29,185 nucleotides of DNA from a virus. The stretch lies in IMG/VR virus record IMGVR_UViG_3300030118_005675, positions 1 to 29,185 of that record; one strand, given 5' to 3'. The position numbers and the translations under genes are program-made. Shown here piece after piece: positions 25,131 through 28,464 of the stretch. The notes beneath the pieces were generated by a model that was given only the letters and a program-made list of their open reading frames with translations, made no database searches and was not told where the DNA came from. The stretch's first letter is position 1, and the number at the start of each line of letters is the position of its first letter.

Positions 25131-25532
25131 TTATCTCGTTGCTTTAAGTACGAAGGAAAATTCTTGAGTTGGAAACTCTTGACCTATAATATCAAAAATG
25201 ACAGTTGCTTCAAATTCATTATCATCTGGATTCGGTTCGACTTCAACTCGTACATTTTCAATTCTGTTCTCAAAATTATCAAGTGAAGTCTTGATTTGAT
25301 CTTGAATGATCGCAGCTGTACCAAAATCCACAAAGTCAAAAAGACTACGATGAACATCAGATCCAAATATTGAGTTAAAAAACTTTTCAGTTGGTGCTGT
25401 TTCAACGATATTTCTCACAGATCTTGTAATAGAACGTTCATTTTTTAAAATTGGCAAATCTTTTGTGACAGGATGAGGTTCAAAAGACAAACTAATGTCC
25501 TTAAAAGACCTTGATATCCGTTTAATTGCCAT
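25131..25532 (-). CDS. 25: Baseplate wedge subunit gp25
   Basis: This 133-aa protein matches T4 gp25 (132 aa) in size and in its neighbour gp6. It has the GPW/gp25 pattern: an N-terminal KDISLSFEPHPVTKDLPILK strand region, an 'RSVRNIVETAPTEKFFNSIFG' helix with an acidic and hydrophobic face, then an IQDQIKTSLDNFENRIENV helix and a C-terminal beta pair ending IGQEFPTQEFSFVLKATR. In T4, gp25 sits where the sheath initiates on the baseplate, bound by gp6. The gene has a late promoter overlapping the stop of the preceding 40-aa ORF, with a predicted leader of about 13 bases, and no obvious Shine-Dalgarno sequence. It opens the 25-6-7-8 run. Confidence 0.95.
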   Translation of the reverse strand: MAIKRISRSFKDISLSFEPHPVTKDLPILKNERSITRSVRNIVETAPTEKFFNSIFGSDVHRSLFDFVDFGTAAIIQDQIKTSLDNFENRIENVRVEVEPNPDDNEFEATVIFDIIGQEFPTQEFSFVLKATR

Positions 25533-25550: not shown

Positions 25551-25558
25551 TATTTATG
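25551..25558 (-). promoter_or_regulatory. Late promoter CATAAATA upstream of gp25
   Basis: The minus strand reads TCATAAATAAATAAAA, containing CATAAATA with an overlapping AATAAATA (25547..25554). It includes the TAA stop of the 40-aa ORF. The predicted start near 25545 leaves about 13 bases before the gp25 ATG. Confidence 0.65.
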
Positions 25559-25676
25559 ACTCTTTTAACAATTCTTTTTGATCTTTTTCCTCATCATATA
25601 GAGATTGACCTTCATCATACATTAATTCTTTCAATATTTTTTGATCAGATTCGTTTTTAGAAGTATTTTTAGTCAT
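25554..25676 (-). CDS. Small charged protein, 40 aa (hypothetical)
   Basis: The frame reads ATG ACT AAA AAT and encodes a hydrophilic, Lys/Glu/Asp-rich peptide (MTKNTSKNESDQKILKELMY, then a second acidic and basic half ending KELLKES). The C-terminal part could form one amphipathic helix. It lies alone between the sulfotransferase and gp25, and fills an otherwise empty 156-base interval. A late promoter lies so close upstream that a transcript from it would have a leader of only about four bases, so it would be translated nearly leaderless or from a longer read-through transcript. No family was recognised. It may not be a real gene. Confidence 0.5.
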   Translation of the reverse strand: MTKNTSKNESDQKILKELMYDEGQSLYDEEKDQKELLKES

Positions 25677-25685
25677 TTTATTGTG

Positions 25686-25693
25686 TATTTATG
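25686..25693 (-). promoter_or_regulatory. Late promoter CATAAATA overlapping the sulfotransferase stop codon
   Basis: The minus strand reads CCATAAATACAC. The TAA inside the octamer is the stop codon of the sulfotransferase gene. The predicted start near 25680 lies just ahead of the 40-aa ORF, and transcripts would continue into gp25. Confidence 0.6.
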
Positions 25694-26450
25694 GTAAAAG
25701 TGTTGTGTAAAAATCTATTGACTCTTTTAATTTAGTATTTGCCAGTTCAATATAATAATTATGTAGTTCGAAATTAAAATTTGCCACGTTTTGTGGTTTA
25801 GAAAGTGCTTTTATTTCTGATACTTCAAGAAATTTTTTCAATTCATCTTGTTTTTGTTGATTTATGAAAAAATGTTCGGTGGTCAAACATATAACGTTCT
25901 CAAAAACTCTTTCAAATTTGTCTTTAACATCTTTATATAGAGTTTGCATCTTAGGATTATTCACATAATCCAAGAATAAATCCGTTTTCTCTTTCAGTTT
26001 TATACCAAAATAACCAGCATCATGATGAAGCATGCCGATGTAAGAGATTAATCTTTGAATTGGTTCTCTATACATCAAAATTATTTTAATATCAAAATGA
26101 TTTCGTAAATCTTCATTTATTTTGCGTAGATAGTCTTCTGGTAAAGGGAAGTAAGATTGACTAAAATCAGATGGTTTTGCATATGAATCAAGATATGACA
26201 CGTAATTATCCAAATTATACGGTTGTAATAATCCTATTTTCTGATTTTTATGCATAACATACATTTTATGTGGTTCAATTAACTCCACTGGGACTATTGC
26301 ATCATAATTATCAAAATTATTATGATGCATAATAGAAAGATAATGAAATTCTTTATATAATCCTTCAACTATTTTGCTATCATACAACATTTTCCACAGT
26401 GAAGTAGTACCTGACCTTGGAATACCAGGACATATGATCAATTTTTTCAA
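25689..26450 (-). CDS. Sulfotransferase-family protein, 253 aa, TTG start
   Basis: Residues 9-22 (GIPRSGTTSLWKML) form the 5'-phosphosulfate-binding P-loop of PAPS-dependent sulfotransferases. R128 and S136 in ILMYREPIQRLISYIG (124-139) fit the 3'-phosphate-binding motif. Length fits a single soluble catalytic domain, with no signal peptide or membrane segment. The expected reaction is transfer of sulfate from PAPS to a hydroxyl or amine. The acceptor is unknown, and a glycan is plausible given the glycosyltransferase nearby. The start must be TTG at 26450: no in-frame ATG lies before residue 21, within the P-loop segment, and an in-frame stop lies six codons upstream. No Shine-Dalgarno sequence is visible. 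A 14-base palindrome (26451-26464) sits directly upstream. The gene lies between a terminator and gp25, like a moron with its own late-type promoter. Confidence 0.82.
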   Translation of the reverse strand: MKKLIICPGIPRSGTTSLWKMLYDSKIVEGLYKEFHYLSIMHHNNFDNYDAIVPVELIEPHKMYVMHKNQKIGLLQPYNLDNYVSYLDSYAKPSDFSQSYFPLPEDYLRKINEDLRNHFDIKIILMYREPIQRLISYIGMLHHDAGYFGIKLKEKTDLFLDYVNNPKMQTLYKDVKDKFERVFENVICLTTEHFFINQQKQDELKKFLEVSEIKALSKPQNVANFNFELHNYYIELANTKLKESIDFYTTLLP

Positions 26451-26489: not shown

Positions 26490-26527
26490 AAAAAAAATCG
26501 CCAACTAGTGAAAAATTGACGATTTTT
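26490..26527 (-). terminator. Intrinsic terminator after the 240-aa gene
   Basis: Minus strand: AAAAATCGTCAA, an 11-base loop, TTGGCGATTTTT, then more T residues. Twelve pairs form, one of them G-T, and the run of T follows the stem directly, as in a Rho-independent terminator. It starts seven bases after the stop codon of the 240-aa gene and closes the glycosyltransferase operon. Confidence 0.85.
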
Positions 26528-27550: not shown

Positions 27551-27709
27551 TTAATCTCCTTTAATTTCAGTACGTATATCAGCAGGATTTGGTTTACCTG
27601 TCTGATAAAATTCAATTGCTAAATCTTCCATCATATCAAAGAACTCAAATTCAGATAGATCTGAAAACTTTAACTGCTCTTTGATATAAATGTCATAACG
27701 ATCTGCCAT
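27551..27709 (-). CDS. Small acidic protein, 52 aa (hypothetical)
   Basis: The peptide reads MADRYDIYIKEQLKFSDLSE, then FEFFDMMEDLAIEFYQTGKP and a NPADIRTEIKGD tail. It is acidic and probably all-helical. Its start codon shares one base with the glycosyltransferase stop (TAATG), and its stop lies two bases before the ATG of the basic 47-aa protein. Opposite charge to that neighbour is notable but does not prove an interaction. No family was recognised. Confidence 0.7.
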   Translation of the reverse strand: MADRYDIYIKEQLKFSDLSEFEFFDMMEDLAIEFYQTGKPNPADIRTEIKGD

Positions 27710-28464
27710 TAGATAACTCTCATCTTCTCATGTCCAACACGAACTCTTGGATCACACCAGATCTCAAATCCTGCATCCTTTGCATCTAAACAGAATGATA
27801 CATCTTCTCCGCACATATCCTGCACTTCACCAGACTCAAAGACTTGCATTTTTGGTGCAAACCAAGGATATGGTAGTCCTTCATTTTCAAAAACACCGTG
27901 CTTAATTAATAACCAACCGAAACCTGTATAGTCAACTGTGAAAGGTTTTGTACGCTTGGATATACTTTCGAGTGTTTCGTGATTCATTACACCACCATTG
28001 CTACGAAAATCATCCTCTTCTAACCAATGTGCTACAGATGTGGTTCTACCATCTTCGGTGCAATACCAACCTGCTGCAATTTCTTTATCCATTAATAATA
28101 ATTGCCAGAACTTCTCACTGTTAAAAACAATATCACTATCAATCCATAACTGATAATCATATTTTAATTTTCCATCCCATGGAATCTGATTTGGTCCTCG
28201 AAGAACATTTGCTCCGAGACACTTACATCTTGCAAAATTAACCATTGATGAATAATCTTGAGATATCTGAATCGACCCGCCGCATTGTACTATATCAAAA
28301 CAAAGTTGAACAAATGCTTTTAAAAATGTGAAAGATACTCCCCGACCTGGCAAACAAAAGACAACGCTCTTGCCTTTTACTAATTCTCTTGCCTTATCAT
28401 AGTCCCATTCTGGTTTTTTCTGTGTGGAAGGAGTCTTTGCTTTTACTGTAAATCCTTTTGCCAT
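27709..28464 (-). CDS. GT-A type glycosyltransferase, 251 aa
   Basis: After a short Lys-rich N-terminus, residues 32-50 (KSVVFCLPGRGVSFTFLKAF) match the start of a GT-A nucleotide-sugar fold. YQLWIDSDIVF, with the D109-S110-D111 metal-binding DxD, is the diagnostic motif. The C-terminal CGEDVSFCLDAKDAGFEIWC block, followed by a VGH, matches the acceptor and catalytic 'ED' region and final histidine of the GT2-like proteins common in cyanophages. The enzyme would transfer a sugar from a nucleotide-sugar donor. The acceptor (phage DNA, virion protein or host surface glycan) is unknown. No membrane segment is present. It is the first gene of a coupled operon, preceded by a palindrome carrying a TATAAT, and no Shine-Dalgarno sequence is visible. 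Confidence 0.85.
   Translation of the reverse strand: MAKGFTVKAKTPSTQKKPEWDYDKARELVKGKSVVFCLPGRGVSFTFLKAFVQLCFDIVQCGGSIQISQDYSSMVNFARCKCLGANVLRGPNQIPWDGKLKYDYQLWIDSDIVFNSEKFWQLLLMDKEIAAGWYCTEDGRTTSVAHWLEEDDFRSNGGVMNHETLESISKRTKPFTVDYTGFGWLLIKHGVFENEGLPYPWFAPKMQVFESGEVQDMCGEDVSFCLDAKDAGFEIWCDPRVRVGHEKMRVI

Follow-up and report, generated by a model that had tools for sequence, protein, structure and literature searches.

PAPS-dependent sulfotransferases are defined by a P-loop with Lys or Arg and a 3'-phosphate helix with Ser, and among them NST, 3-OST and TPST are grouped by catalytic base and PAPS-binding fold (PMC11625862). Arg replaces the P-loop Lys in Stf0, and an RXG motif is known from NodH (PMC11625862). 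In the mechanism of the superfamily, the acceptor loses a proton to a Glu or His base and attacks the PAPS sulfur in line, and PAP leaves (PMC11625862, PMC8341778). Residues K162, E184, H186 and K215 are essential for the activity of 3-OST-3 (PMC8341778). Among cyanophages, S-SRM01 is reported to carry a sulfotransferase, and what phage sulfotransferases do is described as unclear (PMC10580990). The T4-like Synechococcus phage S-SCSM1 has an annotated sulfotransferase, PQC12_gp053, located in the slot between gp46 and a peptidase gene.

The DNA studied here (the window) is a stretch of 29,185 nt that covers the greater part of the 31.8-kb IMG/VR record of a marine virus. The genes in it match T4-like cyanophages, with gp25 and gp6 among the baseplate genes, and its phrog_3704 protein is up to 89% identical to the counterpart in P-SSM2-type phages. 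We consider it highly probable that a minus-strand gene in this stretch is a PAPS-dependent sulfotransferase, as predicted, most likely functional, and an accessory gene that a T4-like cyanophage carries inserted before gp25. Given the sulfotransferases annotated in S-SCSM1 and reported in S-SRM01, the kind of enzyme is known; the subfamily to which the gene belongs appears to be undescribed. Its family was widened stepwise to 15 phage members, with each contig counted once and repeat fetches merged (L011, L012 and L014 into L002; L015, L019 and L038 into L013; L020, L032 and L039 into L016; L021 and L043 into L017; L022 and L025 into L018; L034 into L029; L040 into L030; L027 into L045). The relative that shares the gene order of the window, L002, has a sulfotransferase 82% identical at the protein level. 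The features of the locus are as follows.

27709-28464, minus strand: phrog_1574 gene, its product weakly matching glycosyltransferases (E 6e-4) and 96% identical in L002
26534-27256, minus strand: phrog_3704 gene (E 9.6e-112), upstream neighbour of the sulfotransferase gene
26493-26527, minus strand: predicted intrinsic terminator of the upstream gene, with a compensatory change relative to L002
26473-26480, minus strand: late-promoter-like site TCTAAATA
25689-26450, minus strand: predicted sulfotransferase gene, 253 aa (open reading frame, fold match, 15-member phage family, dN/dS 0.32 relative to L002)
26448-26450, minus strand: probable TTG start codon, TTG also in L002 and ATG at the same residue in 13 relatives
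26400-26432, minus strand: P-loop for the PAPS 5'-phosphosulfate, CPGIPRSGTTS, residues 7-17, conserved family-wide and aligned with the 3-OST-1 P-loop
26334-26354, minus strand: putative catalytic-base motif KEFHYLS, residues 33-39, with E34 as presumed base
26157-26168, minus strand: family signature DFSQ, residues 95-98, invariant in the 14 members that cover it and located at the place of EKTP in 3-OST-1
26043-26069, minus strand: 3'-phosphate-binding motif, residues 128-136, invariant in the 14 members that cover it and aligned with 3-OST
25554-25676, minus strand: conserved 40-aa open reading frame between the sulfotransferase gene and gp25, 93% identical in L002 (dN/dS 0.13)
25131-25532, minus strand: gp25 baseplate wedge gene (GPW_gp25, E 2.9e-13; phrog_261, E 8.4e-48), downstream neighbour

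The original prediction of a 253-aa sulfotransferase frame at this position, which only a TTG could open without loss of the P-loop, was borne out by comparison with relatives. The next in-frame ATG is codon 21, beyond the P-loop, and internal ATG starts were rejected on that ground. In-frame codons ahead of the TTG read TAA CTA TTT TTA AAA ATA in the window and TAA ATA in L002, where the stop lies two codons upstream, so that only the TTG, or the rare ATA, is able to open the L002 frame. Codon 4 of the window frame is likewise TTG but is TTC in L002, leaving codon 1 as the likely start. At the homologous residue, ATG is the codon in the remaining 13 of the 15 family members. These codons in relatives make the case much stronger, and translation very probably begins at the TTG at 26450. 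A clear Shine-Dalgarno sequence is absent ahead of it, which says little since several neighbouring starts also lack one.

Signals upstream of the gene were assessed in the same way. A terminator pattern alone proves little, as two terminator-like sites occur in the stretch and shuffled sequences give 1.8. The terminator predicted ahead of the gene gains support from L002, relative to which the segment 26527-26493 shows one two-sided compensatory change and zero broken pairs. A late-type promoter of its own, also predicted, agrees with the position of TCTAAATA 30 nt from the TTG. This site is one mismatch away from NATAAATA, the late promoter motif of cyanophages (PMC2984593), and its CTAAATA is kept in L002. 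Exact copies of NATAAATA in the window precede gp25, the 40-aa frame and two other genes. Seven of 12 [AC]TAAATA sites lie within 60 nt before minus-strand starts (binomial P about 7e-9, for a gene list picked by us and with some sites overlapping), and the window as a whole has fewer copies of the late motif than expected (16 vs 28). Judged from these elements, late expression of the sulfotransferase gene is likely.

The gene had been placed between a terminator and gp25. The terminator side of this placement stood, but direct adjacency to gp25 did not, because the 40-aa frame, which has no family match, intervenes. Its CATAAATA site lies 17 nt upstream and overlaps the sulfotransferase stop. 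In Bellamy, S-SM2 and S-SCSM1, all of them cultured cyanophages, gp25 comes next after phrog_3704 or is separated from it by a single small open reading frame, and the sulfotransferase gene in the window is therefore best read as an insertion. Other accessory genes occur in equivalent neighbourhoods, namely a Trp halogenase gene shortly before phrog_3704 in S-SCSM1 and a SAM decarboxylase gene near gp25 in S-SRM01. The phrog_3704 gene itself is labelled “PurM” or “ferredoxin” in many cyanophage records. Since the window protein has no Pfam match and P-SSM2 has a separate purM gene after its phrog_3704-type gene, these labels look like propagated misannotation.

Profile searches, from which a sulfotransferase match had been anticipated, gave a divided result. 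The window protein stays under every Pfam cut-off (Sulfotransfer_1, PF00685, 15.3 against 22 bits; Sulfotransfer_3, PF13469, 19.2 against 27 bits, E 0.0016), whereas its orthologue in L013, 61% identical, passes PF00685 with 22.8 against 22 bits. Sulfotransfer_3 is matched at E <=0.1 by 13 of the 15 members. No PHROG model covers the family, and searches with the single window protein returned no match in PHROGs and NCBIfam and only a chance scaffold-protein match with phmmer against PDB. With the family profile, the sole PDB chain found was 3rnl from Alicyclobacillus acidocaldarius, a weak match (E 0.022) in which the P-loop, KE-x-H and 3'-phosphate motifs are in register.

Structure prediction was also applied to the question of identity. 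A model from two sequences (pLDDT 32) was discarded, and an AlphaFold2 model with the 15 phage homologues reached pLDDT 87.8. The highest fold matches of this model are sulfotransferases without exception, and it has the strand-loop-helix P-loop and strand-turn-helix 3'-phosphate site of the superfamily. Z equals 16.5 both to 3-OST-5 and to the bacterial 3rnl (19% identity), matches that span 214-216 residues. Heparan sulfate 3-OST-1, -3 and -5 and the NDST domain resemble the protein over the whole fold (Z 15-16.5, NDST 15.1) at 13-17% identity. TPST-1 and -2 head the Foldseek matches (E 1.3e-5) together with 3-OST; compared with 3-OST, TPST has lower Z (13.4) and lower TM-scores, a likeness in fold only. 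Lower values were obtained for 4gox, a cyanobacterial olefin-synthase sulfotransferase domain (Z 13.1), and for cytosolic SULTs (11-12). The ranking agrees with the grouping of NST, 3-OST and TPST (PMC11625862). By its modelled fold and conserved motifs, the window protein is a sulfotransferase, in line with the original prediction.

The motifs place this identity at the level of residues. An intact P-loop and 3'-phosphate motif had been claimed, and both were confirmed: the P-loop varies only conservatively in the family, and R128 and S136, eight residues apart in YREPIQRLIS, are invariant in members covering them and align with the Arg and Ser of the 3-OST 3'-phosphate motif. R12 and S136 thus correspond to the P-loop Lys/Arg and 3'-phosphate Ser of the superfamily. 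K33 and E34 are present in all 15 members and H36 in 14. When the protein is aligned with 3-OST-1 and -5, E34 takes the position of the catalytic Glu90 and H36 that of the essential His, providing a candidate for the His or Glu base of the superfamily. As in 3-OST, a Glu base is followed by His two residues on, and an Arg and a Ser form the 3'-phosphate pair. Unlike in 3-OST, the P-loop Lys is Arg (R12; Lys in family member L041) and the active-site Lys is Phe. This F96 lies at K123 of 3-OST-1 in our numbering, presumably the equivalent of the essential K215 of 3-OST-3. Of the residues essential in 3-OST, then, Glu and His are kept and both Lys are changed relative to 3-OST-1 and -5. We rejected filing the protein as a heparan sulfate 3-O-sulfotransferase, which it resembles in fold, since both essential Lys are replaced. 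These two replacements suggest that catalysis may differ in detail.

Residues needed for the superfamily mechanism are present in the window protein according to the alignment and model. PAPS would be supplied by sulfate assimilation of the host. E34 would take a proton from an acceptor hydroxyl, which would then attack the PAPS sulfur in line, and the product PAP would be held by the P-loop (R12) and by R128 and S136. With low certainty, the acceptor may be an adhesin of the tail fibre or baseplate, or a glycan of the virion or host surface, and its sulfation might tune adsorption or block re-adsorption. Acceptors of this kind are favoured by the tail-fibre setting of most relatives and by the late-type promoter.

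One possibility, which we regard as somewhat doubtful, is a surface glycan of the host, either LPS or exopolysaccharide, sulfated late in infection so that the receptor is masked and adsorption of other phages, and of progeny to debris, is limited. In fold the protein is closest to 3-OST and NDST, which sulfate polysaccharides, the Glu base aligns, and the phrog_1574 gene lies two genes upstream. PAPS is present in the host cytoplasm, which we count in favour of a host glycan. Fold does not reveal the substrate, however, and a cytoplasmic enzyme would need to act on precursors. L002 has the phrog_1574 gene too, and the match to glycosyltransferases is a weak one.

Genomic settings of the family bear on the acceptor as well. 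Only the window and L002, two of the 15 members, precede gp25. Ten are placed within or close to tail-fibre modules (L017, L029, L030, L035, L036, L037, L041, L042, L044 and L045). Nine of these placements are firm, as the same stretch also encodes a tail-fibre protein or a Gly-rich protein of tail type; L045 was left out of the firm count because its placement relies on its close relation to L029. Most tail-fibre modules with a family member include 2OG-Fe(II) oxygenases, and further modifying enzymes are an Asp/Asn hydroxylase in L029 and a Trp halogenase in L036. From this, we tentatively propose that the enzyme sulfates virion adhesins, that is, tail-fibre or baseplate proteins, as one step of a set of tail modifications, either at Tyr or at hydroxyls that oxygenases encoded next to the gene in related phages have introduced. 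The firm placements, the enzymes beside them, the late-type promoter of the window gene and TPST among the fold matches are all consistent with it. Against this proposal, no oxygenase is seen beside the sulfotransferase gene in the window, tail-fibre modules gather many unrelated accessory genes, and three members follow gp46 and not structural genes.

Those three, L013, L016 and L018, are located directly behind gp46 and ahead of a peptidase gene where the contig reaches so far. The family is thus not always in the late structural block, and such positions argue against a strictly virion-assembly role and for a wider one. They also favour the reading that the acceptor is a small molecule or lipid, in auxiliary metabolism and not on a surface polymer, as they lie in the replication region; the 4gox match points the same way. 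That match is weaker than those to polymer-acting enzymes, and SULTs, which have small-molecule acceptors, rank lower still, so we consider this reading unlikely. In the tree, the window groups with L002, and this pair groups with L013, L016 and L017, indicating that location changed within one clade.

Some observations were made on the surroundings of these genes and on more distant sulfotransferases. Dense sets of modifying-enzyme genes lie beside tail-fibre genes of uncultured cyanophages at L029 4482-10640, L036 586-5720 and L041 581-5670, where 2OG-Fe(II) oxygenases, TauD-like, Asp/Asn hydroxylase and methyltransferase-like proteins, Trp halogenase and sulfotransferase are found. A protein family of about 155 aa recurs near the sulfotransferase in tail-fibre modules (L030 12928-13386, L041 3271-3744, L029 3985-4488 and L017 1-426); its L030 copy has no Pfam or PHROG match. 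The S-SCSM1 protein PQC12_gp053 occupies the same gp46-peptidase slot as three members of the family. It is a strong Sulfotransfer_3 member (79 bits), unlike the window protein, and orthology was rejected because BLASTP aligns 20 residues, the P-loop only. The only relatives that turned up in the phage collection are sulfotransferase-like proteins of Marine virus AG-345-D19, similar in the 3'-phosphate region (about 27-44% identity) and different from the window protein in length (323-401 aa) and in an unusual P-loop, GTGWSATTP. At least two such long, divergent proteins are present in this virus (L009 4521-5726 and L010 2968-3939). Neither two scans of genome contigs for cellular relatives nor a scan of plasmids, all with short patterns, returned any, which is weak evidence given such patterns. 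Pattern matches in L026, L028, L031 and L033 were dismissed as chance in GC-rich contigs.

Divergence from L002 indicates how the gene is maintained. Its dN/dS is 0.32, compared with 0.04-0.13 in neighbours; by these ratios the gene is under purifying selection, looser than that on its neighbours. We consider it highly improbable that the gene is a relic, inactive or in decay, in which TTG marks the loss of ATG. The looser ratio, TTG in the window and L002 with ATG in all other members, and one replaced active-site Lys would fit decay. Yet the frame is open in both genomes with dN/dS well under 1, every motif residue and the promoter site are kept, and the Lys replacement is family-wide and thus no sign of decay. 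Values of dS relative to L002 are 0.28 for the sulfotransferase gene and 0.31 for the 40-aa frame, against 0.59-0.99 for genes on both sides. The block 25554-26450 was perhaps exchanged as a unit more recently, for which this one sequence pair gives only a hint.

A functional accessory sulfotransferase inserted before gp25 remains our preferred interpretation of the window gene. Members of its small undescribed family mostly neighbour tail-fibre genes, a hint that sulfation by this virus may be directed at the proteins with which it attaches or at the surface of its host. The interest of the family lies in this tail-fibre association, as a testable idea and not a result, and its compactness, identified PAPS site, presumed catalytic Glu, and neighbourhood of tail-fibre and modifying-enzyme genes in most members make a direct test feasible. 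More speculatively, and with considerable doubt, T4-like cyanophages may carry a tail-modification set that combines this sulfotransferase family with 2OG-Fe(II) oxygenases, an Asp/Asn hydroxylase and a halogenase, and the window gene would be a member that moved next to the baseplate operon. If so, such a set would chemically decorate the phages' own tail adhesins and diversify host binding beyond protein sequence.
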